Assembly (NCBI GenBank): GCA_014529615.1
Contig: JAABVD010000003.1
Location: 1 to 33,044 of the forward strand
Length of the DNA: 33,044 bases
Reading direction: 5' to 3'
Source: Opitutia bacterium
GTDB taxonomy: Bacteria; Verrucomicrobiota; Verrucomicrobiia; Opitutales; UBA2995
In this document: one piece after another, positions 1 through 23,070 of the stretch
How positions within the stretch are numbered: position 1 is the stretch's first letter
Layout of the letters: each line of letters opens with the position of its first letter
Translations under genes and position numbers: made by a program
The notes under the pieces: generated by a model
What the model was told of the DNA's origin: nothing
The model's input: the letters and a program-made list of their open reading frames with translations, nothing else
Database searches by the model: none

Positions 1-416
1 CTGCTCAACCGGACAAGCCGCGAACCGAGTGACATTTTCATGAAATCAATGACCGTGCTTTCATCATCCACTTTTGTAAACTATTTGTGGGGCTAGAGAT
101 GGCGGGAGTCCTTTAGAACATAGTGGGTAGTATCATTTAGTATTCGGATACGGTTGAAAAGCACACGATTTATTCCAGCCCTATTCATTTACGTGTATTC
201 ACGTAATTACTACTATAAAAATCCTTAATTAGGTTTTCTTAACACGATACACATAATAGCATTGTGCTGCACGATTATTGGTAGGAATGGGACTTTGCTG
301 CCCTTTCACTACCTAATCCAAACATTCCAGAATTTGGATTCTACGCCTTCAAGGAGTAGTTTATATCGAACTCGATAAAGTTCACGGAATCCGGCCGTTT
401 ACTCGCCGTCCATTTA
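1..416. other. Gene-free left edge of the window
   Basis: No convincing gene is visible. One plus-strand frame is open from base 1 to a TAG at 94-96, which could be the tail of an unseen gene, but its 31 codons match nothing I recognise. The rest is AT-rich and lies downstream of the minus-strand AraC gene. A 7-bp inverted repeat (TTACGTG, 4-nt loop, CACGTAA) sits at 189-206. Confidence 0.5.
189..206. repeat. Short perfect inverted repeat
   Basis: TTACGTG and CACGTAA form a perfect 7-bp stem around the loop TATT. There is no T-run on either side, so it is not an obvious intrinsic terminator. It may be a protein-binding palindrome, or chance in AT-rich sequence. Confidence 0.25.
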
Positions 417-1220
417 TCAATGCAAAATGGAATTGCGATAGGTCTTGGGAGACATTCCGGTCTTCTGTTTGAACAGGGCCGAGAAATGATACTCGCTTTT
501 GAAGCCGAGCCCGTAAGCAATTTCTTTGACGGACTTGACACTCCCGGTAAGGAGTATCCTTGCCTTCTGAAACTTTCGCTCGATGAGAAAATGGTAAGGC
601 GTCGTGCCCCATTCACGCTTGAATATGCGAATGGTCTGGGAAGGCGACCGTCCTAAGATCTTTGCCATTTCGGCCAGGCTGGGAGTCTCCTCGACACAAC
701 TATCAATATAATCATGAAGCCCCTGGCTTTGTCTGACAGGGGATTCATGCCTTGCTCGGAGTACTGTTGAGAGTTCCATGAAAATATTATGGAGCGTAAT
801 GGCGACGACCTGTTCGGCCTGGGAGGGATTCTCAACACAGGCTTCGTAGCCTTCACGAAAGAGGGGTTCAACGCTGACCGACGGAATGTGATTAACACCT
901 CGAAGTCCGTAGATGTCTAGTAAAGCCAATGGCAGTGGGCCGGAGGTATTGAACCAGATCTTCGTCCAGGGATCGCTCGGATCCGCTCTGTACTCATGAT
1001 TGCTGCCTTCGGTAACGAAATAAACGTCACCCTCCTTCGGGTAGTGTACCTGGTTGCCGACCTCCAGCGTTCCCGTCCCATGAATGATGTATTCTATCAC
1101 TGTAAACTTGGAGTTCCTGCGCCGCATGCGATAGCTTCCGTCGCAATAGGAAATTCCGCACAACTCAACCTTTAGGGGAGCTTCGGCACGCCAACGACAA
1201 TGGGTCATTTCCTCATGCAT
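417..1220 (-). CDS. AraC-family transcriptional regulator
   Basis: This 267-residue protein has the two-part layout of AraC/XylS regulators. Residues about 30-95 form a cupin-like ligand-binding region (for example YIIHGTGTLEVG, then GDVYFVTEG and HEY). Residues about 172-265 form the double helix-turn-helix, with SLAEMAKILGRSPS as the first HTH and VKEIAYGLGFKSEYHFSALFK plus the PKTYR ending as the second, both typical of the family. It presumably binds DNA in response to a sugar or oligosaccharide. The start is supported by an AGGGA ribosome-binding site about 9 nt upstream on the minus strand. It is divergent from the propeller pseudogene at 1332, and the block covering its start codon is repeated upstream of the TonB receptor at 3044. 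It is therefore the likely regulator of module 1. The ligand is unknown. Confidence 0.92.
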   Translation of the reverse strand: MHEEMTHCRWRAEAPLKVELCGISYCDGSYRMRRRNSKFTVIEYIIHGTGTLEVGNQVHYPKEGDVYFVTEGSNHEYRADPSDPWTKIWFNTSGPLPLALLDIYGLRGVNHIPSVSVEPLFREGYEACVENPSQAEQVVAITLHNIFMELSTVLRARHESPVRQSQGLHDYIDSCVEETPSLAEMAKILGRSPSQTIRIFKREWGTTPYHFLIERKFQKARILLTGSVKSVKEIAYGLGFKSEYHFSALFKQKTGMSPKTYRNSILH

Positions 1221-1290
1221 GCGTATTTTCCCTATTTTTTTGCACCTTAATCGTATTCACTGGAAATCAATGAGCACATATAATGCAAGA
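1205..1290. repeat. Regulatory block, copy 1 (pairs with 2759-2844)
   Basis: This 86-bp stretch aligns without gaps to 2759-2844, offset exactly 1554 bp. About 62 of 86 positions match, and 40 of 46 match in the first part (1205-1250). It spans the first codons of the AraC gene, its ribosome-binding site, a T-rich core ending in TTTTTTTGCAC, and the rightward promoter. Conservation of both promoter hexamers and the upstream core suggests a shared operator, probably for the adjacent AraC protein. Confidence 0.8.
1256..1284 (+). promoter_or_regulatory. Sigma-70-type promoter, copy 1
   Basis: The -35 is TTCACT (1256-1261), followed by a 17-nt spacer and a consensus -10 TATAAT (1279-1284). Transcription would start near 1291 and reach the start codon of the propeller pseudogene at 1332 after about 40 nt. 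The same hexamers at the same spacing recur at 2810-2838. Confidence 0.7.
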
Positions 1291-1331
1291 GTATTAGGCA
1301 AGCGGAGCAATTAAATAAGTGAATGAAGAGG

Positions 1332-2581
1332 ATGAGTATGCTTGATCGACGTTGTTCTGTATTAGTGGCCTTACTGGGTCTTTTCATGCTGGCAGGCTGC
1401 TCCCAAGACACTCCGACCAGCGTTATCTCCCTCAGCGAACCTGAATGTCGCTACACGATTACCCCAACGAAGGAATTCTTTTCGTAGATCACTCACTTGC
1501 GGAAAGAGGCGGACATCTGGGACACGCCCTCGTCGAGTATGAGGACGGCAAGATTCTCGCCTTTTACCCCAACCGCTCCGCGGAAAGCCACAACCCGGAG
1601 GTTTTTCCGATGGCGAGCAAGGGCAGAGGTCACTCAGCCCGGGGATAGATGGAATTCAAGCGGTCCCTGGACGGAGGCGAAACATGGACCGATCCGGGCG
1701 TGCTGCCCTACTCGAAGAACCTCTTCGATGCAGGTCAGAACGGAGAGACTCCCAAGAAACTCTCCGCCCTCCCCGAGAAGGCCGTTCTGACAGACCAGGG
1801 CGAAATCGTTCTCTTCTTTCTGGTGTGTGATATAACGAAAAATGTCATCTACAGACAATTCCAGGTTCCGACCTACATCCGCAGCACGGACGGAGGATAC
1901 ACGTGGAGTGATCCTGTTGAACTGGGTGGCGATCGGGGCAGGATCTACGACGCACGCTATTATTACGGAGAAATCCTGGTTCTCCACTTCAAGAACGATA
2001 ACGAGATCAACTTCCTGGGCAACAAGCCCGAACATGTATACGAGTTGTACGCCAGCCGCGATGGCAGGCGGACCTTTACCAAACGCAGCGAGCCTCCCTT
2101 CAACACTCTCTGGAAATCGTATGGAAGCATGACAATGCTCGAGTCCGGAAGCATCATCGTCTATATATATAACAGGGACGCAGAAGACACGATGGACTAC
2201 GTGATCAGCGACGACGGCGGCCGCACCTGGTCCGAACCAAAAATCGCCAACTTTCGAAAGAGGATTCGGAACCCTCAAATAAACTCACTGAACGGTTGTT
2301 ACTTCATGCATGGACGGAGTGGGAGTTTTGGAGAGGAAAAGGGAATGGGCCATTTTATCCTGTATTCCCCACAAGGTGGTATCAACTGGGATGATGGTGT
2401 CTAATTGAAGTTGCGCGAGGAAGGAAAAGGACTCGGAGCGTATTCGAACAGCCTCGTGGTCGGCTCCCTGAATCCGCGCAAACAGAAGCGGTTGCTGATC
2501 CAGACTTCAAACGCCTACAAAGAGCACATGACAAACGTATATCACTGGTGGATCGACACACCTTGGGAAACAGGGAACTGA
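1332..2581 (+). pseudogene. Broken Asp-box beta-propeller (sialidase-like), family A copy 1
   Basis: Read across its lesions, this is a close relative of the intact propeller at 6325-7500 over nearly its whole length. It begins with a lipoprotein-like signal (ending LAGC, cysteine at residue 23), unlike the ordinary signal of the paralogue. Three lesions are visible. One base is missing near 1461 (ATTACC where the paralogue frame needs a TAC codon), giving a stop at 1485-1487. A TGG tryptophan codon became TAG at 1646-1648 within the shared GHSA..GWMEY stretch. A TAA at 2402-2404 replaces a residue just before the LRE segment. The frame then continues to a normal end (HWWIDTP...) with TGA at 2579-2581. 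Asp-box motifs such as SLDGGETW, STDGGYTW and SDDGGRTW survive. No full protein can be made by standard decoding. Confidence 0.9.
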
Positions 2582-2758
2582 ATTGAATCTGCCCTCCGGG
2601 ATTGCGAGTGAGGCTGTTTTGGCGGCAAGCGACACCGGCTGAAGGTCGCTCCAAGGTGGTACCAATAGCAGACCGTATAAGGCAAGTCGCCGGCAAATAT
2701 CAACGATGAATGCCTTTTACCCAAATAGAGACGCTGATCTGTAGGCGTCATCATTGAA

Positions 2759-2844
2759 TCATTTCCTCAAGTATGCGGATTTTCCGAATTTTTTTGCACA
2801 TTAAATATATTCAATAACGGTTCAATAGAAGATATAATACATGC
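2759..2844. repeat. Regulatory block, copy 2 (pairs with 1205-1290)
   Basis: This is an ungapped match to 1205-1290. The best-conserved part is TCATTTCCTCA, the GCG.ATTTTC core and the TTTTTTTGCAC tract with TTAA after it. The AraC start codon in copy 1 corresponds to ATA here and the frame closes within a few codons, so only the control region was retained. It places TonB receptor 1 under the same candidate control as the AraC-flanking promoter. Confidence 0.8.
2810..2838 (+). promoter_or_regulatory. Sigma-70-type promoter, copy 2, for TonB receptor 1
   Basis: The -35 is TTCAAT (2810-2815), followed by a 17-nt spacer and a consensus TATAAT (2833-2838), the same geometry as at 1256-1284. Initiation near 2845 would give a leader of about 200 nt before the chosen start at 3044. 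Confidence 0.7.
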
Positions 2845-3043: not shown

Positions 3044-6000
3044 ATGAAAAAAACTATAACTATGCTCCTTGCCATTACTTTGCTGCAGTGGCCTCTCGCG
3101 CACACGAGTGTGGCTCAAGATCAAGAAAATGAATCGGAAGACGTATATGAGTTGACCCCATTTAATGTGGATGGATCCCAAGACATGGGATATCGTGCTA
3201 CCAACACCCTTTCAGGAACCCGCTTGAATGCCAGCCTGAAGGACACAGCCGCTTCTGTCTCCGTTTGGACACAAGAGTTTTTAGACGATACAGGATTGGT
3301 AGAGATTGACGAGCTCATCAGATACTCCCTCAACTCCGTGCTGGATACCGACAATATGGATGGGCCTAATCCTAATTTCACTACCTGGTTCAATGCCGTA
3401 TACACAACCCAGCGCATCCGCACCCGAGGGGTCGATGCCACTCGAGGACTCGACTACTTCAAGACCATTGTGCCGGATGATGCTTACAAAATCGGGCGTT
3501 ACGACGATGCCCGCGGTCCCAACGGGGTTCTTTTCGGGGTTAGCAATGCAGGCGGCCTGATTAACCAGAGCTCTCTCTTTGCCAACACCTACGACGATTC
3601 CGGTCGGATCAGATACAGCTTTGGCGATTTTTCCCGAAGTCGGGCTGAATTTCGTTACAACAAGGTTCTTGCCGAGGACAAGTTTGCCATTCTTGTAGCC
3701 GGTCTCAAGCAGGACAACGGACACTGGCGCGACTGGGCGAGCCACGATAAAGAGCGCATATACCTAACCGCCACTTACAAACCGACTGAGCGTATCACCA
3801 TCCGTGCCAATTTCGAAGATGGCTTCGAACACAAAACGCTCGTACAACCGAGTCCTATGTCGGACTACGGCCTGCCCTATTACGACAACTTGCTCGCCCG
3901 CGGTCTGGAAAACGTTCTGTTTGAACCTACGGGCGGCAATCCTAGCAGTGCCATGAGGGAAGTAGGAGTCACCAACCGGAACGGCAACCCCCGGAATTTT
4001 GCTTCAAATGGTCAAAACCGCTTCACCTACATCGCGAATGACGGCACCTTTTACAACGCTACCGGAGAATTCCAAACACAGGGATATGATGATGAGCGGG
4101 TTCGTCATCCAGACGGCTCTCCGGGCTTGGGCGATCGTTCTATTCGCATCAACGATCCCGAATTCCTGCCTTACCACTTAAATCCAGCCGGCGATGATAT
4201 GTATCGTGAGGATGATTTTAATCTGTACTCGCTGTTTCTGGACGTCGAGTTGGCTGAAAACTGGTTCTTCAACGTTCAGGCAGGTCATCAGGAGACAGAC
4301 CTCGATGTCTTCATGATCACAGGCAACAGGCCCCGTTTCCAGGCAGATCCAAATACGATCCAAGGTCTGAACGGACCGGTAAATCCCTATGCGGGCCGTT
4401 TTTACCTCGACGCCGGTTATCGCAATGACCGGAAAGACGTCAGCTATGACGAACTGCGCGTATCAACTTCCTACGACTTGGAAACGGAGAAATTGGGCCG
4501 TCACCGGATCGCACTGTCCGCATCCAAAGTTGAAGAGGAGGAGTTTCGCGTATTCCCCCAGCTCGCTCTAGGCGGCAATCCAGCCGGTCGCGGAACCTAT
4601 ACGGACCCCAATGGATTTGTTCACCAGAATATAAGTCATGAGCACGGCGATAACCGCATCACTATCCGACATTACATTGACCTTAACGATACGTCTACTT
4701 GGAGGATCGGAAGGTGGAGGGACATTCCCAGTACGGTCCAGACAGACCGCTGGTCTCCAGGAAGTCCCCAGTCCTACCCGGTCACTTGGGTAGAAGGAAA
4801 TCCCGGACGCACAAATTATCTCATCGATACGGCTTTTGATTCCGCTATGGTGGTGACACAGAGTCATTTCTTTGACGACCGTTTCGTGGTAACCCTAGGC
4901 CTTCGTGAGGACGAGGTTTCGATCGAGCGGTTCGGCCATCGTCTGGACCCGCTTTTTAGTTTTGTACCGGACAGATCGATCACCTGGGAAACACCTTCTG
5001 AGCAGGGTATTTCACCGGGCACACCCCCGGCAGAGACTTCTCAGACCGTGAAAACCGCCGGAGCTGTCTTTCACATCAATGAGAACATTTCGCTCGTGGC
5101 GAATACCGCGACCAACATCGGCGTGCCGGATCTCCGCACCACTGTATTTCCGGATGCGACCAGTGCACCGCCACCAGAAGGAGACGGACTCGATATTGGA
5201 ATCGATTTCAGTGCTCTCGAGAACCGGTTGAGTGGCCGCCTCGTTTACTATGAGACAGACCGGCTTGGCGATGTTCCCGGTGGTGCCGGGAATCCGGTCG
5301 CCGGTGATATGGCAAATGTTTATGAAGCATACGAGGATGCGTTTACCCCGGCAGTGGATGATGATGGCAATGAGGTACCTGGGACCGGTAATCCCACAGC
5401 ATTGAATGACTTGTTGAACCGTCGCCAGGAGCTTAACCCAGCTGTGACCGGCTACATGCGTGACTTTACCGCAAAAGGATGGGAACTGCGAATAACAGCG
5501 AATATTACAGACAATTGGCGTTTCATTCTCAATGCGTCTCACACAGACCGAATCATTGCCAATACATACAATAGGACGATCGAATTCCTGGGCTTGCAGC
5601 AAGGAACCGACGGCCTGGTTGTCCAAGGCGCCACAGAAGTGGGGGAAGTACCGGATCCGAGTGATCCAGGCAGCACAATTGAGGGCTACGCGATCGATCC
5701 CTCCGCTTATTCGCCCGACGGCGTGATCGCCGAGTATCTAGCGTTGGAGAGTCAATTGCCCGCGACCCTGACACTCGATAACACTGGAATTTCGCGCTCC
5801 ATTTTTGACATGGCTGATGCAGTAAATGAACGAAAGCTACGGGACGAGAAGCGTTGGGGATTACGGCCTTACCGTGTGAATGTATACACGGCCTACGACT
5901 TTGATGAAGGCTTCCTGGATGGTTGGTCAGCCGGTTTTGGCTACCGTTGGGAATCAGCAAACATCATGGGTGAAAATAGTAATGGAGAGGAAATCGAGGG

Positions 6001-6250
6001 CGCAAGCCTGCGCTACGCGGACTTGATGCTTCGCTACCGGTTAAAGCAGAGCTTTTGGGGAAATGGCCGTTGGTCCTTCCAGATGAATATCAATAACCTG
6101 TTCGACAACCGCGACATTCTTCCCAGCCGCCTCTCTATCGACGACTACGATGGCTGGCAGATTCCCGGTGGACGCGGAGGGCCTCCCTACGCTCGATTTG
6201 ATTTGCCAACGCCAAGGGAAATCCGTTTTAGCGCTACGCTGGATTTCTAA
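3044..6250 (+). CDS. TonB-dependent outer-membrane receptor 1
   Basis: This 1068-residue protein starts with a signal peptide (MKKTITMLLAITLLQWPL...SVAQ). The Opitutae-type plug region follows: YELTPFNVDG, GYRATNTLSGTRLNASLKD, then VWTQEFLDDTG near residue 80. The remainder has alternating aromatic and charged segments typical of a 22-stranded barrel, ending in the aromatic ATLDF. It should move glycan fragments across the outer membrane using TonB energy. An ATG at 2984 gives 20 extra residues (MFFPVS...), but these precede a perfect signal peptide, so 3044 is preferred. No strong ribosome-binding site is seen. It is the first gene after promoter copy 2 and lies 74 nt ahead of the intact family A propeller. 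The cargo is unknown; neighbours suggest a sulfated or acidic glycan. Confidence 0.93.
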   Translation: MKKTITMLLAITLLQWPLAHTSVAQDQENESEDVYELTPFNVDGSQDMGYRATNTLSGTRLNASLKDTAASVSVWTQEFLDDTGLVEIDELIRYSLNSVLDTDNMDGPNPNFTTWFNAVYTTQRIRTRGVDATRGLDYFKTIVPDDAYKIGRYDDARGPNGVLFGVSNAGGLINQSSLFANTYDDSGRIRYSFGDFSRSRAEFRYNKVLAEDKFAILVAGLKQDNGHWRDWASHDKERIYLTATYKPTERITIRANFEDGFEHKTLVQPSPMSDYGLPYYDNLLARGLENVLFEPTGGNPSSAMREVGVTNRNGNPRNFASNGQNRFTYIANDGTFYNATGEFQTQGYDDERVRHPDGSPGLGDRSIRINDPEFLPYHLNPAGDDMYREDDFNLYSLFLDVELAENWFFNVQAGHQETDLDVFMITGNRPRFQADPNTIQGLNGPVNPYAGRFYLDAGYRNDRKDVSYDELRVSTSYDLETEKLGRHRIALSASKVEEEEFRVFPQLALGGNPAGRGTYTDPNGFVHQNISHEHGDNRITIRHYIDLNDTSTWRIGRWRDIPSTVQTDRWSPGSPQSYPVTWVEGNPGRTNYLIDTAFDSAMVVTQSHFFDDRFVVTLGLREDEVSIERFGHRLDPLFSFVPDRSITWETPSEQGISPGTPPAETSQTVKTAGAVFHINENISLVANTATNIGVPDLRTTVFPDATSAPPPEGDGLDIGIDFSALENRLSGRLVYYETDRLGDVPGGAGNPVAGDMANVYEAYEDAFTPAVDDDGNEVPGTGNPTALNDLLNRRQELNPAVTGYMRDFTAKGWELRITANITDNWRFILNASHTDRIIANTYNRTIEFLGLQQGTDGLVVQGATEVGEVPDPSDPGSTIEGYAIDPSAYSPDGVIAEYLALESQLPATLTLDNTGISRSIFDMADAVNERKLRDEKRWGLRPYRVNVYTAYDFDEGFLDGWSAGFGYRWESANIMGENSNGEEIEGASLRYADLMLRYRLKQSFWGNGRWSFQMNINNLFDNRDILPSRLSIDDYDGWQIPGGRGGPPYARFDLPTPREIRFSATLDF

Positions 6251-6269
6251 AATTCCTCACGCCCAATTG

Positions 6270-6301
6270 GCACCGGCAAATCCGTTTGCCAGTGCCGGTG
6301 C
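6270..6301. repeat. Intercistronic stem-loop
   Basis: GCACCGGCA (6270-6278) pairs perfectly with TGCCGGTGC (6293-6301) around a 14-nt loop. An alternative inner hairpin GGCAAA/TTTGCC shares some bases. There is no T-run after it, so it is unlikely to be an intrinsic terminator. It lies between receptor and propeller genes, where such structures can set mRNA end points and stoichiometry. Confidence 0.55.
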
Positions 6302-6324
6302 GTTGAAAAACCCCACTACACAAC

Positions 6325-7500
6325 ATGAATAAATATCTTCGCTTTTCCATTATTCTAATCATTTGCCACGTTCTCTGTTGCCTGTCCCTAGTCGCCGCAG
6401 ACAAGCCTGGACAAGCCTACACGATCTACCCTCCGAATCCACCGAATGATGGGATCCTCTTTGTGGACCACTCGCCGGCTGGTAGGAGTGGACATTTGGG
6501 TCACGCGCTCGTCGAGTATGCGGACGGCAAGATCCTGGCCTTCTATCCGAATTGTTCTAATGACAATAAGGGTCACTCAGCCGTGGGTTGGATGGAATAT
6601 AAACGCTCCAAAGACGGGGGCAAAACCTGGAGCGATCCGGAAGTCCTCACCTATTCGAAACAACTCTTCGAGTCGGGACAAAACGGTGGACCCGAAAGCG
6701 AAAAGTTTTCCGCGTTTGCTGAAAAAGCCATTCTGACGGATGACGGGGACATGGTTCTTTTCTTTCTCGTCTGTAATATCACCACGAATACGGTCTGGAG
6801 GCGTTTCCAAATCCCGACTTACATCATCAGCAAGGACCGAGGTCATACCTGGAGCGAACCGCTCACCGTGGTGAACGAACGGGGCAGAGTCTATGACGCA
6901 CGTTACGTCGATGGAGAAATCCTCGCACTGTTTTTTGCCAACGATAACGAGATCAACTTCCTGGGCAACAACCCGGATCATGTCTACGAGCTGTATGCCA
7001 GCAATGATGGCGGCCGGTCCTTCACGAAGCGCAGCCAACTTCCTTTCGATACGGAAGGCAAATCCTACGGAACCATGGAGCAACTGGAATCCGGAAGCCT
7101 GGTCGCCTACATCTACAACCGTAACGACGAGTTCAACATGGATTATGTGCTGAGCGACGATGGAGGCCGTACCTGGTCCGAGGTAGAGACCTCCCACTTT
7201 GCGAAAAAGATTCGGAATCCCCAGTTAACCAGGATGAACGGCTCCTATTTCCTCTATGGGCGGAGCGGAAGTCTGGGCAAAGAAAAGGGCCACATGGTTC
7301 TCTATTCATCGAGTGATGGCCTTAACTGGGACGAAGGTGTTTTTTTGCGGATGCGTGAGCACGGGCTCGGGGCCTATTCCAATGGACTCGTGGTCGGAGC
7401 TTTGAATCCCAACCGCAAGAACCGGCTCCTGATCCAGGCCTCGCACGCCTATGAGTTGAGCAATACCAACGTATTACACTGGTGGATCGACACCCCATAG
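6325..7500 (+). CDS. Secreted Asp-box beta-propeller (sialidase-superfamily), family A intact copy
   Basis: This 391-residue protein starts with an N-terminal signal (residues 1-25, ending VAA). Five Asp-box motifs are visible: SKDGGKTW (95-102), SKDRGHTW (169-176), SNDGGRSF (226-233), SDDGGRTW (277-284) and SSDGLNW (329-335). Together they indicate a sialidase-fold propeller. Conserved acidic and basic patches (GHLGHALVEY, ERGRVYDARYVDGE, NDNEINFLG, IRNPQ, YGRSGS) probably line the active site. They do not let me say it cleaves sialic acid, since this fold also hosts other glycosidases and lyases. The gene sits between TonB receptor 1 and an AGE epimerase (13 nt to the next start), so it probably processes the imported glycan in the periplasm. 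The dead copy is at 1332-2581. No clear ribosome-binding site precedes the start. Confidence 0.85.
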   Translation: MNKYLRFSIILIICHVLCCLSLVAADKPGQAYTIYPPNPPNDGILFVDHSPAGRSGHLGHALVEYADGKILAFYPNCSNDNKGHSAVGWMEYKRSKDGGKTWSDPEVLTYSKQLFESGQNGGPESEKFSAFAEKAILTDDGDMVLFFLVCNITTNTVWRRFQIPTYIISKDRGHTWSEPLTVVNERGRVYDARYVDGEILALFFANDNEINFLGNNPDHVYELYASNDGGRSFTKRSQLPFDTEGKSYGTMEQLESGSLVAYIYNRNDEFNMDYVLSDDGGRTWSEVETSHFAKKIRNPQLTRMNGSYFLYGRSGSLGKEKGHMVLYSSSDGLNWDEGVFLRMREHGLGAYSNGLVVGALNPNRKNRLLIQASHAYELSNTNVLHWWIDTP

Positions 7501-7513
7501 AAGGGAAGGTATC

Positions 7514-8770
7514 ATGAGTAAAGCAATGTCCCGGATGACTGAAACCCGTCTCCAGATGCAGGAACACCTGGAGACGGGCATCCTTCGTTTCTGGCTGGAA
7601 AACGGGATCGATCGCGAGCACGGAGGCTATCTGACCTCCTTCGATGCTGAAGGCAAGCCGACGGACGACACCGACAAGATGCTCGTCACGCAGACCCGCA
7701 TGGTCTGGGGCATGGCGGCGGCCTTCACGATGTATCCGGAAAGGGAGGATTTCAAAGACGCCGCCCGGCAGGGCTTCGAGTTCCTGCTGGATCATTTCTG
7801 GGATTCGGAACAGGGCGGATGGTTCTGGAAAGTCAGACGCGACGGTCAGCTGATCGACGGGGCCAAACTTGTCTATGGACAAAGCTTCGCCATTTATTCC
7901 CTGGCCCAGTACACCTTGTCCACGGGCGATCCACGGGGTCTGGACTTTGCCCAGAAGACCTTCGATCTCCTCCAGACCTTTGCCGCCGATACTTATCGGG
8001 GCGGCTATTACGAAAACCTGGAAGCTGACTGGAGCGTTTGCGCCCCGGGCTTTGCTGGCGGGGACCGAAAGTCTTTGGATATCCACATGCACCTGATGGA
8101 AGCGTTTACGACGCTCTCCAAGGCCAGCGGAAAGGAGATCCATCGCAGAAAGCTGGAAGAAGTGATCGAGGTCATCCTGTCCAGAATGGTCGATAAGAAG
8201 GCCGGATGCGGCCTGAACCACTTCAGTCTCGATTTCACACCGATCCCTCCGATCGACATCCAAAGGACCTGGAATGCAGAGCGGGCAACCGGGGAAGTTA
8301 TAGAAGGTCCGGTCGACAGTACCTCCTACGGTCACAACGTTGAACTCGCCTGGCTTCTCCATCGGGCCATCGAGACGCTGGGCATGCCGAAAGATCCTTA
8401 CGCGAAACTGACCCGAAGCCTGGTGGATCATTCCTTGAAATATGGCTTCGACCACACCCTGGGCGGAGTTTTTCGAGATGGACCTCACGAAGGCGAAGCT
8501 ATTGTGAAAGATAAGGAATGGTGGCAAAATAGCGAAGCGCTCGTGGGCTATCTCGATGCGTATGAGAATTTCAACGACGAACAGTATCTAACCGCTTTTC
8601 AAAAGACCTGGGACTTTGCCAATCGCCACATGATCAACCACCGGATTGGGGAATGGCGGCAACTGCTCAACAGGGAGGGCAAGGTCCGGGTCGGAGATAT
8701 CGGCAATCCCTGGAAAGCCTTCTATCACAGTGGGCGGTCGATCATGGAATGCCTGGTCAGGCTCGAGTAG
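7514..8770 (+). CDS. AGE-family epimerase/isomerase, closest in motifs to cellobiose 2-epimerase type
   Basis: This 418-residue cytoplasmic protein has the (alpha/alpha)6-barrel motifs of the N-acylglucosamine 2-epimerase superfamily. These are QTRMVWGM (R62), SLDIHMHLMEAF (H191/H193), YGHNVELAWLL (H274), WWQNSEALVGY and WKAFYHSGR (H405). The 131-residue gap between H274 and H405 matches the spacing of the two catalytic histidines I recall for Rhodothermus cellobiose 2-epimerase. The YGHN.E form also fits that branch better than true GlcNAc/ManNAc epimerases. It would invert C2 of a sugar or interconvert aldose and ketose. A GGAAGG ribosome-binding site lies just upstream and the gene is 13 nt after the propeller, so translation is probably coupled. 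The substrate is not determined; ManNAc, mannose or a released disaccharide are possible. Confidence 0.87.
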   Translation: MSKAMSRMTETRLQMQEHLETGILRFWLENGIDREHGGYLTSFDAEGKPTDDTDKMLVTQTRMVWGMAAAFTMYPEREDFKDAARQGFEFLLDHFWDSEQGGWFWKVRRDGQLIDGAKLVYGQSFAIYSLAQYTLSTGDPRGLDFAQKTFDLLQTFAADTYRGGYYENLEADWSVCAPGFAGGDRKSLDIHMHLMEAFTTLSKASGKEIHRRKLEEVIEVILSRMVDKKAGCGLNHFSLDFTPIPPIDIQRTWNAERATGEVIEGPVDSTSYGHNVELAWLLHRAIETLGMPKDPYAKLTRSLVDHSLKYGFDHTLGGVFRDGPHEGEAIVKDKEWWQNSEALVGYLDAYENFNDEQYLTAFQKTWDFANRHMINHRIGEWRQLLNREGKVRVGDIGNPWKAFYHSGRSIMECLVRLE

Positions 8771-8910
8771 CTCGCGGAGAGCAGTCCCTCTAATCAAAAT
8801 CCCGATTAATATGGCTGAAGGAATTTTTTTTTACACAAAGGCGTTAGATCCGACATCGAATACGATCAAGCCGCCGCAACTCGACACAATATCAAAAGAA
8901 ATAGCAACAT

Positions 8911-9891
8911 ATGCCAATGAATCCTCAAGAATTGAAAAAACGGATACGGGGTCCCGTGCACCTCTCCATGACGCCCTTCGATGAAAATGAAGCGCTTGAT
9001 GAAAAGGCGCTGCGACACAACGTTCGCCACGCCGTTGAGAATATGCAGGGTGAAGGTGTTTTTCTTGTAAACGGAAGCACTGGCGAATTCTACGCAATGA
9101 ATGATGACGAATGCAGAAGAACAACTGAAATTGTCATCGAAGAAGTGAATGGCCGCCTTCCCGTTATAGTCGGAACAGCCCGTGCCGGAACCAGATACAC
9201 GATCGAAATGAGCAAACACGCGGAGGCAGCCGGTGCAGACGGCATCATGGTGGTTTCTCCGTATTATCATATTTGCAGCGGCGAAGAATTGTGTCGGCAC
9301 TTCGAACAAATCGCCGCCAGTATCGATATCGGTATCATGGTCTACAACAACCCGACGACGAGCAAACTGTGGATACCTCCTGCTCTCATGGCGCGCCTCT
9401 CCAAGGTCGACAACATCATTGCCAACAAGGAAAACACCACCAACGCATTGGCGTTCTATGCCATGCAGAAGGCGCTCGATCCGGAAGACATGATCATGGT
9501 TTGCGGCCCAGGACAGATGCTCTTCCCGTTTGAGGTAATCTTCGATTGCCCGGCATTCGTGACTGAGCTTTGCAACTTTGCTCCAGAGATTCCATTGAAA
9601 TTCTCACGGGCAGCCGAGGCGAAAGACTTTGAAGAATTGAGAAGGCTCATGGACATGACAGCGCCTTATCATGAATTGATTTCAAAACTCGGTCAGGAAA
9701 AAGGACCATGCCCACATGTCCTCTCAGACTACATTGCTTCGAATGATACATTCACTTATCAGGCGGTATGCAAGGAAGCAATGAATGCCATTGGTCTTCC
9801 GGGCGGACGGATGAGATCTCCGATGTGCAACCTCAACGAGGCTGACAAAGAGCAGGTCAAGGATGTCCTTAAGAACTGGGGTGTTCTCTAG
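8911..9891 (+). CDS. DapA/NanA-family lyase (dihydrodipicolinate synthase superfamily)
   Basis: This 326-residue TIM-barrel class I aldolase has GSTGE at 55-59 for binding the alpha-keto acid carboxylate. Tyr145 in VYNNP is the proton shuttle, and Lys173 in ANKENTTN is the Schiff-base lysine. The family cleaves or forms pyruvate-derived aldols: N-acetylneuraminate lyase, 2-keto-3-deoxygluconate aldolase, or related dehydratases. Next to a sialidase-like propeller, an AGE epimerase and an SSS symporter, a role in nonulosonate (sialic-acid-like) breakdown is plausible. A 2-keto-3-deoxy sugar acid from an unsaturated uronate fits as well. The 140-nt gap before it is the largest inside module 1, and no strong ribosome-binding site is visible. 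I chose the first ATG (MPMNPQELKK); the second, two codons later, is also possible. Confidence 0.85.
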   Translation: MPMNPQELKKRIRGPVHLSMTPFDENEALDEKALRHNVRHAVENMQGEGVFLVNGSTGEFYAMNDDECRRTTEIVIEEVNGRLPVIVGTARAGTRYTIEMSKHAEAAGADGIMVVSPYYHICSGEELCRHFEQIAASIDIGIMVYNNPTTSKLWIPPALMARLSKVDNIIANKENTTNALAFYAMQKALDPEDMIMVCGPGQMLFPFEVIFDCPAFVTELCNFAPEIPLKFSRAAEAKDFEELRRLMDMTAPYHELISKLGQEKGPCPHVLSDYIASNDTFTYQAVCKEAMNAIGLPGGRMRSPMCNLNEADKEQVKDVLKNWGVL

Positions 9892-9948
9892 TTCGCAAGA
9901 TTACTTTTTGAATTTAAATAACCAAGTAAGTATCGGAAGATCAATGTT

Positions 9949-11430
9949 ATGGCCTTTATAGACTGGTGTGTTGTCCTTGCGTATGCGCTGGGAATGCTTG
10001 CCGTAGGCTGGTATTATGCAAGACGCACCAGTACCACCGATGACTACCTCCTGGGCGGCCGAAACATGTCGCCCTGGAAGGTAGGGCTCTCGCTCTTTGC
10101 CTCGCTTCTGAGCACGGTTACGTACCTGGGAATCCCGGGCGAGATGATCAAATACGGGCCCATGGCCCTGGCGCAGTTGGTCGCCCTTCCTTTTATCGCG
10201 TTGGTCGTCGGATGGTTCTTGATTCCCTACATCATGCGCCTGCGCGTCACCAGCGCCTACGAAATCCTGGAAACCAGACTCGGGCTGAGCGTTCGCATGA
10301 TGGGATCCTGCTTCTTCCTGATCCTGCGGCTATTCTGGATGTCGCTGGTGATATTCGCCACGGCGGACGTCGTGCTGGCGCCGGTTATGGGGCTGGATTC
10401 GTCCTCAGTGCCCTGGATTTGTGTTGTCCTAGGTGTGGTGACCGTGCTCTACACCTCGATGGGCGGCCTCCGGGCGGTCGTGCTGACCGATGTCATTCAA
10501 ACGGTCATTCTTCTGGGTGGCGCCATCCTGATAGTGATTCTCATATCGGTTGAGTTGGGAGGCGTGGATCCGTGGTGGCCAAACGAGTGGCCCGAGCACT
10601 GGCAGAAGCCAGTGTTCTGGTACGACCCTGCCGTGCGGTTCACTTTTGTTGGGGCGGCCCTTTCCTATTTTACCTGGTTTGTCTGCACCGCCGGATCCGA
10701 TCAAATGGCCATTCAAAGATACCTGGCTACACGGGACGCCAAGGCAGCGCGCCGAACCTTTATCACGGCTTTGTTGTGCAACCTGTTGCTCTGGCCCTTC
10801 CTGGCAGCTGTGGGCCTGACCATTCTGGCCTATTTCCAATTAAGGCCGGAAATGCTGGCTGCCGGACAGTCACCTCTGAATGACGCCGATAAGTTGCTCT
10901 CGATCTACATCGTAAAAGGATTGCCAAGGGGCATTAGCGGCATCGTCATCGCCGGCCTGCTGGCTGCCGCCATGTCCAGTCTCTCGTCGGGTTTGAATTC
11001 AGCCTGCTCAGTCATCACCTCCGACTTCTTTGACCGCTTGTCATCCAAGCAGAAAGGTTCCGAGGAAAGCCGCGTCCGGTTGGCCAAATACGTCTCCCTC
11101 GTTATTGGCGCAGTTGTGGTTTTGCTCGGCTCTTTGATCGGCCAGATCGAAGGTAACATCCTGGAACTCTGCTACAAGATCGGCACCCTTTTGGTCGCAC
11201 CGTTATTCCTTCTGTTTTTCCTGGCTATGTTTGTGCCCTGGTCCACCTCTTTCGGCACCCATGTTGCCGTCCTGTGCAGTGTCGCCATGGCGGTCGCCGT
11301 AGCCTATTTCAATATATTCGGGCTGACTTTTCAGTGGATGATGCCTGCCTCCTTCCTCACTGGAGCCACAGTCGGTGCTCTCGCCAGTCTGCTACCGGTA
11401 GGCGGCCAACAGAACAAGGACACCGTTTAA
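9949..11430 (+). CDS. SSS-family sodium/solute symporter 1
   Basis: This 493-residue, highly hydrophobic protein has about 13 membrane segments and the solute:sodium symporter layout. It starts IDWCVVLAYALGMLAVGWYYARR with YLLGGRNMSPW. An unwound first core helix follows (SLFASLLSTVTYLGIPGE), then VTSAYEILETRLG and MGGLRAVVLTDVIQ. The late AAAMSSLSSGLNSACSVITSDF segment supplies the serine-rich sodium site. It should carry a monomer (sugar, sialic acid or uronate) into the cytoplasm with sodium. It follows the lyase by 57 nt and precedes the sulfatase by 32 nt. It is a paralogue of the symporter at 24048-25556. The solute is unknown; sialic acid transporters are one branch of this family. Confidence 0.92.
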   Translation: MAFIDWCVVLAYALGMLAVGWYYARRTSTTDDYLLGGRNMSPWKVGLSLFASLLSTVTYLGIPGEMIKYGPMALAQLVALPFIALVVGWFLIPYIMRLRVTSAYEILETRLGLSVRMMGSCFFLILRLFWMSLVIFATADVVLAPVMGLDSSSVPWICVVLGVVTVLYTSMGGLRAVVLTDVIQTVILLGGAILIVILISVELGGVDPWWPNEWPEHWQKPVFWYDPAVRFTFVGAALSYFTWFVCTAGSDQMAIQRYLATRDAKAARRTFITALLCNLLLWPFLAAVGLTILAYFQLRPEMLAAGQSPLNDADKLLSIYIVKGLPRGISGIVIAGLLAAAMSSLSSGLNSACSVITSDFFDRLSSKQKGSEESRVRLAKYVSLVIGAVVVLLGSLIGQIEGNILELCYKIGTLLVAPLFLLFFLAMFVPWSTSFGTHVAVLCSVAMAVAVAYFNIFGLTFQWMMPASFLTGATVGALASLLPVGGQQNKDTV

Positions 11431-11462
11431 AACCTGCCTAACCTGTAGTTTAACTGGAAGCT

Positions 11463-13271
11463 ATGAGCATCAAACGGATACCAACACTCACAATGATTGC
11501 CGTCGCGGCGATTCTGTCGTTTGTCAAAGCGGCGACGGCTGATAATCGACCCAATGTGGTTTTAATCCTCACCGACGACCAGGGTTATGGCGACCTGAGC
11601 TGCCACGGCAATCCGGTATTGAAGACCCCGCACCTCGATGAGCTTTACCAGGAGTCGGTCCGCCTGACCGACTACCATGTGGCCCCAACCTGCACGCCCA
11701 CCCGCGCGGCGCTGATGACCGGTCATTGGCCCAACCGCACGGGAGCCTGGCACACCACCTTCGGCCGCTCACTGCTGCGGGAGGACGCGGTCACCTTGGG
11801 CCAGGTCTTTCAGGAGGCCGGCTACGCCACCGGCATGTTTGGCAAGTGGCACCTGGGCGACAACTATCCTTACCGCCCGGAAGATCGCGGCTTCGAGGAG
11901 GTGCTTCGCCATGGCGGTGGCACCATCGCCGAAACGTCCGACTACTGGAACAACGCTTACTTCGACGATACCTACTTTCACAATGGGAAGCCCGAACCGA
12001 CTGAGGGTTACTGCACCGACGTCTGGTTCGACTACGCCCAGCGCTTTATCAAGTCCCAGATAAAAGCCGGCAGGCGCTTCCTCGCATACATCTCCACCAA
12101 CGCTCCGCATTGGCCCATGCATGCCCCTCAGGAATTCGCGGATCCTTACGAAAAGGATTACGGTGTCTATGTCGGTCACTTCCTCGGCATGATCGCCAAC
12201 ATCGATTACAACGTCGGCCGATTCCGCAGCTTTCTCGAGGAAGAAGGACTGACGGACAATACGATCTTCATTTTTACCACCGACAACGGCACCAAGACAG
12301 GGGACAAAATCTTCAACGCCGGCATGCGTGGCCGAAAGACCAGCGAGTATGACGGAGGGCATCGAGTCCCATTCTTTATCCATTGGCCTGAAGGAGGACT
12401 CACCGGCGGCCGGGATGTTGAACCAATCACCGCCCACGTCGACCTGTTTCCCACCCTGATCGATTTATGCGAGATCGCTCCACCCAAAGGCGTTAACTTC
12501 GACGGCCGCAGCATTCGCCCCTTACTGGAGGGTAAGGCCCGTTTGGCCGACGGCACCTGGCCAGACCGGATCCTGATCACCGACTCTCAACGGGTAATCG
12601 ATCCGGTCAAATGGCAGAAGAGTTCCGTCATGACCAACCGATGGCGACTGGTAAACGGCAAGGAACTCTACGACATGAAGCAGGACCCGGGACAGACGAA
12701 CAACGTGGCGGATGCGCATCCCAAAGTAATGGCCCGGCTCAGAGCTTTCTACGATGACTGGTGGGCCGAACTGAAACCCACTTTCAAAAATATTCCTGCG
12801 ATCCATCTGGGCCACCCTGCCGAAAATCCAACCCTGCTGACCAGCCATGATTGGATGGTCGAGGACACCAGGGTCAAGATCCCCTGGAACCAAGCCTTCG
12901 TACGTGAGGCCATGGACAATCCGGCGGTGATCGGCGACTGGAATGTCAAAGTGGTCGAGGCCGGCGACTACGAAATCCGTTTGCGCCGTTGGCCCGTGGA
13001 AGCCGATACAGCGATCGACGCCCCGCTTCCTCCCGGAAATGATGTACCCGGCGAGATTCCCTTCCGTGCAAGTCCCGGGAACGCCGTTCCAGCCGTCAAG
13101 GCCACGGTTCGGATCGGCGACTTAAACCTTGATGCGCCAGTCAAGCCAGGGGGCAAGGAAGTCGTGTTTAATGTGAACCTTCCTGCTGGAAGAACAAAAA
13201 TGTCTACATTTTTCACTACAAACGAAGGTATGAAGGTCGGGGCATTTTACGCATACGTCAGAAGGAAGTGA
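11463..13271 (+). CDS. Secreted sulfatase (arylsulfatase-type, S1 family), with C-terminal extension
   Basis: This 602-residue protein has a signal peptide (cleavage near residue 26). D38 and D39 in TDDQGYGD bind calcium. The C77-T-P-T-R81 motif is one in which Cys is oxidised to formylglycine by the maturase, and GKWHLGD and FTTDNGT complete the active site. The family hydrolyses sulfate esters on glycans in the periplasm or outside the cell. Residues about 450-602 form an extra C-terminal domain ending in VGAFYAYVRRK, as in many planctomycete and verrucomicrobial arylsulfatases. Sampled lines are markedly GC-rich (one at 11701 is about 70%) against about 48% in the next sulfatase, suggesting separate histories. 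It is 32 nt after the symporter and 29 nt before the interrupted sulfatase. The sulfate position cannot be predicted by eye. Confidence 0.9.
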   Translation: MSIKRIPTLTMIAVAAILSFVKAATADNRPNVVLILTDDQGYGDLSCHGNPVLKTPHLDELYQESVRLTDYHVAPTCTPTRAALMTGHWPNRTGAWHTTFGRSLLREDAVTLGQVFQEAGYATGMFGKWHLGDNYPYRPEDRGFEEVLRHGGGTIAETSDYWNNAYFDDTYFHNGKPEPTEGYCTDVWFDYAQRFIKSQIKAGRRFLAYISTNAPHWPMHAPQEFADPYEKDYGVYVGHFLGMIANIDYNVGRFRSFLEEEGLTDNTIFIFTTDNGTKTGDKIFNAGMRGRKTSEYDGGHRVPFFIHWPEGGLTGGRDVEPITAHVDLFPTLIDLCEIAPPKGVNFDGRSIRPLLEGKARLADGTWPDRILITDSQRVIDPVKWQKSSVMTNRWRLVNGKELYDMKQDPGQTNNVADAHPKVMARLRAFYDDWWAELKPTFKNIPAIHLGHPAENPTLLTSHDWMVEDTRVKIPWNQAFVREAMDNPAVIGDWNVKVVEAGDYEIRLRRWPVEADTAIDAPLPPGNDVPGEIPFRASPGNAVPAVKATVRIGDLNLDAPVKPGGKEVVFNVNLPAGRTKMSTFFTTNEGMKVGAFYAYVRRK

Positions 13272-13300
13272 AACCTGAAAGTATTGGAGAGTAACTACAA

Positions 13301-14794
13301 ATGTTATCAGAGAAAAAATTAACGCTTGCTTTGCTGACTGTTCTTGCCGGTACAGGTATCCTTTCAGCCCGGTCAACTCCGAATATAGTCGTTATACTGG
13401 CAGATGATTTCGGTTATGGCAGTGTCAACTGCTACGGAGCGCCGGTGTCAATGATCCGTACGCCAAACATGAATTAATTGGCAAAAGAGGGGATGCGGTT
13501 TACCGATGCCAATACGCCTTGTTCTGTCTGTACGCCGACCCGGTACGCCTTGTTGACAGGGCGCTATGCCTGGCGGGGTAGGCTGAAATATGGAGTATTG
13601 AATCAGCGCGACGGGGGAATGCTGATTGAAAAGGGTATCTTCACGCTTCCCGCTTACCTCAAGCAAAAGGGATACACGACAGCGCACATTGGGAAATGGC
13701 ATTTAGGATATACTTATCAGGATGATTTCACTAACTATGCATCTGCCCCTCTTGAGCCAGGGCCGCGAGCCATTGGATTCGACTACCATTTCGGGATTCC
13801 AAATAATCTTGGCAGCGCAGCAAAAGTGTACATCGAAAATGAAACTATATGGGGTCTCCGTTCAACGATGGTTTCGCCTTACGGAAAAAGCTATTACAGC
13901 GGTGAACCCTACCATGGGTACAATGCTCCCCAACGCGTGACAAAAAACGTTGCCAGTGATCTGAACAAACGGGCACGGGAATGGATTTTCAAGACTGTCC
14001 GAGAGAAACCCGACAACCCCTTTTTTCTATATTTTGCCCCAGCGGCTATTCATAATCCGGTATCCCCATCAGAGGAGTTCCGGGGAACAAGTGGTTGTGG
14101 TGCCTATGGCGATTTCATTCAGGATCTTGATAATTCGGTTGGAGAAATTCTTGACGCCCTGGCATATTCCGGAGTGCTGGACGATACCATCGTGATTTTT
14201 TCGAGTGATAATGGTGGAAGTATTGGATACCGGGAGGAGAGGCAGGCCCGTGCGATGGGGTTCATCAACAATGGAATATTCCGCGAGGACAAGCGAACAA
14301 TCTGGGAGGGCGGATTACGGGTTCCGTTCATGGTGCGTTGGCCTGGACATATCAAGGCAGGCAGCGTGTCTGACCGGATGATCAATGTGGTTGATATTTT
14401 CGCCGCCCTTCAAGACCTGATTGGTGGGGAAGTGCTTCCTCCACAAGAAGCAGGCGCAGACAGTTTTTCTTTCTTCGATGAACTTGTCGGTAAACGGAAC
14501 GAAGACTTGGCTCGGCCGCATATGGTGGCGAATAATATGGAAGGGGTAATGGCCATAAGGATGGGCCCCTGGAAGTATATTGAGGGAGTTCCAGCCAAAC
14601 CCTTGGAAGGGAAATTTGGGAAGGCCGTTCAACGGCAGATGAATCCCCAGCTATACAACCTGGAAGAGGATATCCAGGAAAGTATCAACCGCATAAAGGA
14701 TTATCCGGAAATACATGAATCGCTGCAAGCTGCCTTGGATGAAATCCGGTCAGCCCGATCTGAGCGGGCAAGTGTGAGTCGTGAGCGTGAGTGA
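13301..14794 (+). pseudogene. Sulfatase interrupted by a single in-frame stop
   Basis: An ATG at 13301 opens a frame with a signal peptide (MLSEKKLTLALLTVLAG...), then NIVVILADDFGYG containing the metal-binding D35 and D36. Codon 59 is TAA (13475-13477), where a relative would have a residue such as Gln or Asp in the TPNM..LAKEGM stretch. The same frame then runs unbroken for 438 codons with CSVCTPTR (formylglycine Cys), GKWHLGY, SSDNGGS and GLRVPFMVRWPG, to a TGA at 14792-14794. Together it would be a normal secreted sulfatase of about 497 residues. Restart at the TTG just after the stop would lose the signal and two calcium ligands, so that product should be inactive. The lesion is one substitution, so the loss is recent, suppressible, or a sequence error. 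Confidence 0.85.
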
Positions 14795-15304: not shown

Positions 15305-16411
15305 ATGCCTTTGACGGTTGTTAGGATTTCCGTAATTGATCAGACAGCTGCTGTCATCAGAGATGCCATTCTTAATAATGAGTGGCGTCGTTGGCTCCCT
15401 GGCGAACGAAGACTGTCCAAAGACTTGGGGGTAGGTCGAAACAGCCTGAGAGCAGCTCTTAAGATCCTGGAAATGGAAGGGATGATTAAAATCATTCACA
15501 GACAAGGCGTTCAAATTATTGGGAATACCTCCAAGCGAACCACGAAGAAAAGTCATGTCGTTGGAGTCCTATCTCCCAGTCCCATCGAAACCGTGTATCC
15601 CAGAAAAATCCTCTATATTGACGCTTTGCGCGATCGATTGGCAAAAGACGGCTACATCCTGAAATACTATGATGGTAACCATTACTTTAAGACGGGATCC
15701 GAAAAGACTGTTCAACGATTAGTTGAACAGGAGCAGTGCGACTGTTGGATGCTGGTTGCATCTAACAAAGCCGTCCAAAATTGGTTCTCTTCAAACAACA
15801 TATCCTGCCTGATCGCTGGTTCCCGTCATCAGGGAATAGATTTGCCTTTTGTAGACGTTGATTATCAGGCGCTTTGTCGCCATGCCGTGGTAACTTTGCG
15901 ACGTTTGGGTCATAGGAACATTGTTTACTTAACACCTCCCCCGCTACTGGCTGGAGACGTTCGAAGTGAAACTGGCTTTCTCGAAGGCATTAATGAATGT
16001 TTTGGAGATAATCCAGAGGTGGGAAACATTGTGCATCTGGATCCCTCGGTTGATCACATAGAACACACGGTAAATCGACTCATGAAGCAGCGCTCCAGGC
16101 CCACTGCAATGCTCATTAACAATGCTTTCCAGTATTTGACGGTGTTCAGCGCACTCACCCAAAGGGGCTTGCGTGTCCCAAATGAAGTTTCCCTGATATG
16201 CCGGGGGTCAGAATATTTTCAACGCTACCTTAGGCCTACTCCTGCCCGATATGAGCAAAGTCCCTTCCTGTTTGCCGGAAAGTTGTACCGAAACATCAAG
16301 AAGCTAATCCACAATCCGTCGAAAAAGCCAAAACCCATTTTGTTGATCCCTGATTTCGTGGAAGGAGGCAGCATCTCACATCGCGAATTAGAACGATTGC
16401 AGACAAGATGA
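15305..16411 (+). CDS. GntR-type wHTH / LacI-type sensor transcriptional regulator
   Basis: This 368-residue protein carries a GntR winged helix-turn-helix at residues about 12-72 (IRDAILNNEWRRWLPGERRLSKDLGVGRNSLRAALKIL in segments, closing with IIHRQGVQI). A LacI/periplasmic-binding-protein-like sensor spans about 84-360 (HVVGVLSPSP, VDVDYQALCRHAVVTLRRLGHRNI, AMLINNAFQYLTVFSAL). This combination is common among carbohydrate regulators: a bound sugar would alter DNA binding. It is on the plus strand directly before module 2, 204 nt ahead of TonB receptor 2, whose promoter contains a clean palindrome. It is therefore the likely local regulator. The effector is unknown. Confidence 0.88.
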   Translation: MPLTVVRISVIDQTAAVIRDAILNNEWRRWLPGERRLSKDLGVGRNSLRAALKILEMEGMIKIIHRQGVQIIGNTSKRTTKKSHVVGVLSPSPIETVYPRKILYIDALRDRLAKDGYILKYYDGNHYFKTGSEKTVQRLVEQEQCDCWMLVASNKAVQNWFSSNNISCLIAGSRHQGIDLPFVDVDYQALCRHAVVTLRRLGHRNIVYLTPPPLLAGDVRSETGFLEGINECFGDNPEVGNIVHLDPSVDHIEHTVNRLMKQRSRPTAMLINNAFQYLTVFSALTQRGLRVPNEVSLICRGSEYFQRYLRPTPARYEQSPFLFAGKLYRNIKKLIHNPSKKPKPILLIPDFVEGGSISHRELERLQTR

Positions 16412-19600: not shown

Positions 19601-20098
19601 CTGAGAATGTCTGCCGGGGGTACGACCGTGTTGCGTCCGATCGAGGAACTCTGGTTATCCCAGAACGTTGCTGTACTTCGTGCCGCCACCGCATTGGATG
19701 ATACCGTCTCCAATGAACAACGCGAATGGCGTTTCAATGGCGTTACTTCCTATTCATTCACGGAAGGATGGCTGGATGGGTTGAACGTGGGCGGTTCTAT
19801 CCGCTGGGAGGACGAGGTGGCAACCGGTTATGTATTCGCACTTGATCCGGAAGCAGGAGTACCCATACCCCTGGTTGATCAGCCCCATATGAGTGATTCC
19901 CTCCTGCATGGTGACCTCTTTGCTTCCTACAGATGGAAGCTGACCGACAAAATCGACTGGAAAATCCAGTTAAACATCAGGAACGCCTTTGGGGATGACG
20001 ATGATATTCCGGTCAAGACAAATCCTGACGGGCAAGTAGCGGTGATCCGGATCCCGAATCCAAGAACGATTATGATCACCAACACCTTTTCCTTTTAA
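16616..20098 (+). CDS. TonB-dependent outer-membrane receptor 2
   Basis: This 1160-residue protein has a signal segment at residues about 10-29 (LIEILILFTLVGALGLLAQ). The Opitutae plug signature follows: YELSPFVVES, GYTATSTLAGTRIKTDLADLGS and VVTQEFLEDTGATG. A long barrel domain ends in the aromatic ITNTFSF. It shares the plug motif with the receptor at 3044 but differs in the barrel loops, which suggests a different ligand. GGAAA lies a short distance before the start. The sulfamidase-like sulfatase follows after 30 nt, so import and desulfation in module 2 are probably co-transcribed. The ligand is unknown. Confidence 0.93.
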   Translation: MSSNYKNQGRLIEILILFTLVGALGLLAQEGDEETYELSPFVVESSDQEGYTATSTLAGTRIKTDLADLGSAISVVTQEFLEDTGATGLGTLLSYTTNTEVGGDQGNFSDARDIANSRYYQKEERTDPQLNTRIRGLGRADLTRGLFLTDIGFDSYNTERVTVSRGPNSLLFGIGSPGGVIDASLKQAVHNANFGEVKVRVDNYGTFRSEFDVNRTLVEDRLAIRVAALRNDARYKQEEAWTRDERIYANLELVLFKNENSDFLGPTRIRANGEVGTTRESPIEVIPPTVAYSGWFEPVPSSIQQFTGIAPPANVVHPNEGGTWEFQETYNPLPFSRNESQINTNVHPAYFRFIAAHFNDPNATTADVGTGDGLQGYQGVITWRTNLDTLDSTGLAGTPGAIAAFGPDAPGDTPVNRTSEFHAQSPFGEPFAIGFAAPTLRNRDVFDYRNHIYSGGIDNLERKFDAYSVTLEQGFFDNKLAVEATFDKQHYETTQDFFFQGGRDQSTSGTYDINVSIAEYLQNGQPNPNLGRAYSRVAIPEIDFKELDRETVRLTMFGELDFSEKENWLQHLGRHRFTALYNDHTFDRRSSQWEHAWVSNDFNVIDAVQGNTLTANRRGFTTVVWTSDSLLGLSSINDVRLNKVNIPHPQPGDSYQVLYADTSSASAERTLRTGTVTNERFLDEMNISQTQIEAKAFAWQSYFLDNHIVGLLGYREDDTVSFNRAIVGEVGFEERDEEGRWKPEFTRLSNTPALEESGDTRTWSVVGRYPEALLGDLPGNLDLQVHYAESENFNPIGFRNDALGRPLGQPTATTKEYGFLIKTIDNKLNFKVNWFETSLNDQNAPPRVNTLSYALNRINDYRDAEINLELPFSDQFETISGDPTSFPIQDYDTFYSSMLNAIPAELRDISNIRQVDVTGDGVWDSMEADSVQNLRSTQDRIAKGVEFEVVANPTINWRLILNVSQQETINSNTASVMGPVVEAYTANLRSSRLGELRMSAGGTTVLRPIEELWLSQNVAVLRAATALDDTVSNEQREWRFNGVTSYSFTEGWLDGLNVGGSIRWEDEVATGYVFALDPEAGVPIPLVDQPHMSDSLLHGDLFASYRWKLTDKIDWKIQLNIRNAFGDDDDIPVKTNPDGQVAVIRIPNPRTIMITNTFSF

Positions 20099-22960: not shown

Positions 22961-22989
22961 GTTTTCGCAAATAGTGTAGGCGCGAAAAC
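22961..22989. repeat. Inverted repeat after family B copy 1
   Basis: GTTTTCGC (22961-22968) begins directly after the stop codon and pairs perfectly with GCGAAAAC (22982-22989) across a 13-nt loop. There is no T-run after it. It may form an mRNA-protecting stem-loop at the end of the gene; the right arm overlaps the sulfatase remnant. Confidence 0.4.
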
Positions 22990-23048
22990 CCGAGAAGAAG
23001 CCGAACAAAACGTGGAATTACCCGGAATATCTTTTCACAGCTCCTTGA
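22986..23048 (+). pseudogene. 3' remnant of a duplicated sulfamidase-like sulfatase
   Basis: The frame reads KPEKKPNKTWNYPEYLFTAP followed by TGA (23046-23048). The last 20 residues of the sulfatase at 20129-21595 are EPEKRADRTWHYPDYLSTAP followed by TGA. The match and its position before a family B propeller show that a sulfatase-propeller pair was duplicated and the second sulfatase then almost wholly deleted. Confidence 0.88.
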
Positions 23049-23070
23049 GAAACACCTGAGCAAAGCCGGA

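Follow-up and report, generated by a model that had tools for sequence, protein, structure and literature searches.

The window analysed here is the whole of contig C11 of genome G000 (33,044 nt; the assembly has 3,414,231 bases in 387 contigs and is 91% complete). From left to right it carries the gene of an AraC-family regulator (AraC), a first copy of a short control block, a BNR-propeller gene (BNR-A), a second copy of the block, and genes for a TonB-dependent receptor (TonB receptor 1), a second BNR protein (BNR-B), a GlcNAc-2-epimerase-like protein, a DHDPS-family protein, an SSF symporter and sulfatases. Further right lie a GntR-type regulator, a second TonB receptor, another sulfatase and more BNR proteins. 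The features needed below are:

417–1220, minus strand: AraC-family regulator with a cupin-like sensor and a C-terminal HTH_18 domain (Pfam), divergent from copy 1
1205–1246, plus strand: operator candidate, copy 1, overlapping the first AraC codons and aligned with copy 2 and the G002 copy
1256–1284, plus strand: sigma-70-like promoter, copy 1, TTCACT-N17-TATAAT, 10 of 12 consensus matches, with the same layout in copy 2 and in G002
1323–2581, plus strand: BNR-A, a dead BNR-propeller gene, its frame broken and interrupted by in-frame stops, 64% identical in amino acids to the intact BNR-B (6325–7500)
2759–2800, plus strand: operator candidate, copy 2, from the alignment with copy 1 and the G002 copy
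2810–2838, plus strand: promoter, copy 2, TTCAAT-N17-TATAAT, from the alignment
3044–6250, plus strand: TonB-dependent receptor 1 (TonB-type receptor profile, 6.8e-15, below the curated cut-off)
6266–6307, plus strand: hairpin between TonB receptor 1 and BNR-B (z −3.66)
6325–13271, plus strand: operon of BNR-B, epimerase, DHDPS-like protein, SSF symporter and sulfatase (Pfam), which in G002 directly follows the single block

Genes of the cluster

The regulator has both parts of the sugar-sensing branch of the AraC/XylS family. The C-terminal double helix-turn-helix of about 100 residues is matched by HTH_18 at residues 185–263 (5.1e-21; 75.2 bits against a cut-off of 33.6), and the N-terminal cupin-like sensor by AraC_binding at residues 19–105 (4.5e-13). 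Its closest orthologue (84% amino acid identity) is found in G002, a genome of the same family assembled as a single 4.8-Mb contig; other matches among 53 genomes, own and relatives, reach at most 42%, and an orthologue at E ≤ 1e-40 is present in two of 372 genomes of the order, G000 and G002. Distant relatives, 29–39% identical, occur at nine loci in named genomes. In the DNA around them, matches to the other 20 proteins of the window (E ≤ 1e-8) were found at none of the nine, so these loci are no help in naming the inducer. The most similar of them (L071, Spirochaetales, 37%) seems, by eye, to start near the same place, which favours M1 as the AraC start. Solved structures gave distant AraC-family matches only, the best being a partial HTH match (1.2e-9).

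BNR-A and BNR-B were aligned over 368 positions. The BNR-A frame is broken after the signal-peptide part, has in-frame stops before 1649 and ends at 2404. For TonB receptor 1 the ATG at 3044, with its signal peptide, is more probably the start than the mechanically called TTG at 2984, and the leader from copy 2 is then about 205 nt long. Homologues of this receptor with 54–56% amino acid identity over most of the protein are present in G002, G004, G005 and G006, with a fragment in G007; the one in G002 is 2.7 Mb from AraC in contig coordinates. The hairpin that follows the receptor gene is also retained in G002, where one base pair of the stem differs by a double change (C-G to T-A) and where the hairpin forms part of the leader, immediately behind the promoter.

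The GntR/LacI-type protein (15305–16411) combines a GntR and a periplasmic-binding-like domain (Pfam) and has an orthologue in G002. TonB receptor 2 (16616–20098) separates its gene from a sulfatase gene; in G002 these two genes are adjacent, without a receptor. BNR-propeller genes at 21653–23763 and 27914–29218 have long near-identical stretches among themselves (at offsets of, for example, 989–992, 5269 and 6261), which suggests recent duplication or gene conversion; 23071–23763 is a short BNR copy. Sialic acid as the substrate is a guess from the epimerase, aldolase, symporter and BNR genes. A sialic acid (nan) operon is not supported by its lyase, as the DHDPS-family protein scores 77.6 and 101.8 bits against NCBIfam cut-offs of 382 and 281.

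The two blocks and their conserved element

The sequence-only reading had paired 1205–1290 with 2759–2844 in an ungapped alignment with 62 of 86 positions identical, 40 of 46 in its first part, and this is exact to the base; the remainder has 22 of 40. A repeat finder places the best bounds at 1198–1259 and 2752–2813 (81% over 62 nt), to which the −10 hexamer is to be added. Left of about 1198 the likeness is at background (2/20 identical at 1170–1189): the score of the left 100-nt flanks of copies 1 and 2 is reached by 0.92 of shuffles, and an extension of copy 2 leftward into AraC coding sequence was looked for and not found. The best 46-mer identity between the two regions is 40, compared with a maximum of 31 in 400 first-order shuffles, and chance is thus excluded as the source of the pair. 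BLAST of the block against the whole 3.41-Mb assembly returned two hits only at E ≤ 0.001, the block itself and its partner (E-value 3.8e-10). Over the 40 nt after the −10, copies 1 and 2 show a marginal likeness (score reached by 0.037 of shuffles), and the fractions are 0.251 for copy 1 and 0.964 for copy 2 against the G002 copy; therefore, we do not claim a leader common to the copies.

The promoter elements noticed earlier in the letters were found in both copies. TATAAT lies at 1279–1284 and 2833–2838, it is preceded by near-identical −35 hexamers (TTCACT and TTCAAT) with a 17-nt spacer in each case, and the T-tract ending in GCAC is present twice as well. All three homologous copies, the one in G002 included, have the sigma-70-type arrangement TTCAxx-N17-TATAAT, with the spacer inside the 16–18 nt range. 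A scan of the region for sigma-70-like sites is near chance (3 hits against 2.3 in shuffles), and Rfam gave no match at the gathering score.

Positions invariant in the three-way alignment are TCATTTCCTCA.G.ATGCG.ATTTTCC..ATTTTT.TGC, TATTCA and TATAAT.CA. Conservation is distributed unequally. The 42-nt element is identical at 36/42 positions between copies 1 and 2, 38/42 between copy 1 and G002, and 34/42 between copy 2 and G002, and TATAAT at 6/6 in every pair, while the 17-nt spacer retains 6/17, 5/17 and 6/17, respectively (Fisher's test of operator versus spacer, P-values 2.5e-4, 6.6e-6 and 1.5e-3). In this comparison of three copies, the retention of the element and TATAAT together with the loss of the spacer looks like an operator plus promoter. 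The footprint-like pattern agrees with the earlier proposal that the best-conserved part is a candidate AraC operator. It does not agree with the view that copy 2 keeps a dead vestige of the AraC start: TCATTTCCTCA, which overlaps that start, is identical in three of three copies, and an operator explains the left part of copy 2 better than a vestige does, since this part is well kept there although it encodes nothing.

BNR-A and BNR-B share 44% of four-fold degenerate sites, which is near saturation. Thus, if the blocks are as old as these two genes, their likeness must be selected. The block may also have been duplicated separately and more recently; were copy 2 younger in this way, the loss of the spacer and flanks would still argue for selection on the parts that were kept. 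The operators of copy 1 and G002, at 90% identity, barely exceed the DNA next to them (86%), so the argument for selection depends on copy 2 and the spacer contrast. For the pair of copy 1 and G002, whose histories differ to the right of the operator, recombination may be a partial source of that contrast.

A third copy in G002 and the mosaic cluster

In G002, one block lies between AraC and an intact BNR-B operon, and BNR-A, copy 2 and TonB receptor 1 (4.98 kb together) are absent from that place. As TonB receptor 2 is missing there too, both cluster receptors are absent from the G002 cluster. A model built from the three copies identified two sites in G000 (97.8 and 91.9 bits; rest at most 13.6 bits), one in G002 (92.9 bits; next 14.6 bits) and nothing above 14.5 bits in six other genomes of the family, all remaining scores in the eight genomes being below 15 bits. 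Across 372 genomes of the order, the same model gave just two extra hits of 20–21 bits (per-genome E-values 7e-4 and 1e-3), about what chance would give, and when the block was searched against 384 genomes of the class, the extra hits among the matches listed were weak and at chance level. The T-tract/GCAC core, suggested before as a probe for the genome, is not specific by itself, since with up to two mismatches it found 8 sites and the reversed control pattern 11. Block and AraC orthologue co-occur in only two of the 372 genomes, G000 and G002. As far as the assembly shows at its 91% completeness, the regulon would consist of two sites in one cluster. Among the papers listed on AraC operators, on AraC, sialic acid and Verrucomicrobia, and on promoter duplication and gene capture, we found no description of the block.

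Upstream of the TonB receptor 1 homologues the block was not found where upstream sequence was available, which gave chance matches of 10–15 nt only; the matches in G006 and G007 reach a contig end, and their upstream regions lie outside this check. The simplest reading of these comparisons is that the receptor gained the operator-promoter in the G000 lineage. Alternatively, TonB receptor 1 may have been lost from the G002 cluster, as TonB receptor 2 is also missing there, between GntR and Sulf3.

The two blocks had been ascribed to a simple local duplication; their unlike flanks and the comparison with G002 point instead to a rearranged, mosaic cluster. Coming through AraC, the orthologous match between G000 and G002 breaks off where the element ends on its right (1259) and starts again at 6243, shortly before the TonB receptor 1 gene ends. 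The share of four-fold sites common to both genomes is 69% in AraC and 68–75% in most of the right half of the cluster, 37–47% in Sulf3, BNR3 and ECH, and 87–95% from BNR-B to Sulf1. The tract 6243–13303 is 95–96% identical to G002 in nucleotides (94.8–95.9% for its operon), and recent horizontal exchange of this tract is probable. Its part 6243–9891 matches over the full length in two of 372 genomes (G000 and G002), and in G612 the match covers 303 nt at 69%. At 5/17, copy 1 and G002 agree less in the spacer than the divergence to its left would allow (binomial test, 1.8e-7 at 86% and 9e-4 at 69%), so the right part of the promoter is probably no simple orthologous pair in the two genomes, and a recombination joint may be located at, or adjoining, the operator. 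On these alignments the cluster is a mosaic with a seam at the right edge of the operator, since orthologous similarity ends there and the operon within 6243–13303 resembles its G002 counterpart much more closely than AraC resembles its own.

Gene order is also permuted relative to G002, where the right part, from GntR to a sulfatase, stands immediately before AraC. At its right end (32966–33044) the contig overlaps contig C110 of the same assembly by 79 identical bases, and window positions 1–65 are 95% identical to a stretch just past the sulfatase on C110 (9384–10550, L098).

A probable AraC regulon, its alternatives and related systems

We consider it probable that the blocks, as paralogous control regions, belong to a small, local regulon of AraC type, with the element of about 42 nt as the AraC site and copy 2 driving TonB receptor 1. 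The two-site regulon is read from the two copies in the window, the copy in G002, their unequal conservation, the lack of any further site and the co-occurrence with AraC. That there are two homologous control regions, copy 1 preceding the dead propeller gene and copy 2 preceding TonB receptor 1, is retained from the sequence-only reading. Between the end of the 42-nt element and a weak −35 (TTCAxx) lie about ten bases, and the spacing from this hexamer to a perfect TATAAT is 17 nt. Such a layout is usual for AraC-type activators, which recruit polymerase to a poor −35. Most likely, AraC would sense a sugar from the glycan, probably one released from a sulfated glycan, bind the element and activate transcription from the weak −35. 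Copy 1 covers the AraC start codon, and bound AraC could limit its own expression; in the other direction this copy would read into the dead propeller gene. Copy 2 would drive TonB receptor 1 and perhaps, by read-through, the BNR-epimerase-aldolase-symporter-sulfatase genes.

Copy 2 might instead be an inert remnant of a duplicated AraC-BNR intergenic region that now controls nothing. Copy 1 faces a dead gene today, a leader of about 205 nt separates copy 2 from TonB receptor 1, and homologues of this receptor in relatives lack the block where upstream sequence was seen. Yet a remnant should decay evenly, and here the operator has lasted but the spacer has not (36/42 against 6/17), the −35 core and TATAAT persist and the flanks are gone, so we find this unlikely. 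A recent recombination or gene conversion at a rearrangement seam or target, rather than regulatory selection, could also have kept the block alike: orthologous similarity to G002 stops at the element's right edge (1259), and the tract 6243–13303 beyond has another history. Recombination alone leaves unexplained why hexamers are kept around an unconserved spacer, and we regard this origin as highly improbable.

The block could also be the operator of another regulator, with AraC a mere neighbour; the same cluster encodes the GntR-type protein with its periplasmic-binding-like domain and G002 orthologue, and a global factor could be considered as well. However, a global factor should have many sites and two were found, no copy of the block lies near the GntR gene, and the block both abuts and overlaps the start of AraC, with which it also co-occurs. 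Another regulator is therefore quite unlikely.

A bolder idea, which we put forward tentatively and think rather unlikely, is that the operator-promoter serves as a homology seam or docking site, where front genes are exchanged by recombination between copies and newcomers at once come under AraC control. The cassettes would then be the dead BNR gene plus TonB receptor 1 in G000, and BNR-B directly in G002.

Returning to the AraC regulon, its core reading is probably right, and as biology the regulon would be local and of an ordinary kind, its evolutionary seam being the point of interest. For a sulfated-glycan cluster whose AraC-type regulator is uncharacterised, it provides a testable two-site regulon and a 42-nt candidate operator. 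It also suggests that acquiring a copied operator-promoter can place a TonB receptor under a local regulator; such clusters may change their uptake genes in this manner more generally.

Like the operators of AraC, XylS, RhaS and MelR type, the block has a regulator divergent from its target, an element near a poor −35 and a perfect −10. Operators of the AraC/XylS type consist of two half-sites, direct repeats about 21 bp apart. Unlike in that family, such half-sites are not demonstrable in this candidate site: no significant direct repeats about 21 bp apart were found within it, the best match (7/15, at offsets 9 and 19) being common in column shuffles of a test that would miss degenerate half-sites. 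No inverted repeat in the block was prominent either, the shuffles having covered the direct repeats. The absence of demonstrable direct repeats, to which AraC-family proteins are reported to bind (PMC9723621), is the main weakness of the candidate site itself.

The other close comparison is with the AraC-type or hybrid two-component regulators of Bacteroidetes-like polysaccharide utilisation loci. Unlike in those loci, the second site precedes a receptor whose homologues in relatives sit elsewhere, without the site where the upstream region was seen; like those regulators, AraC would act at few sites, within its own cluster of sulfatase, TonB receptor and symporter genes.
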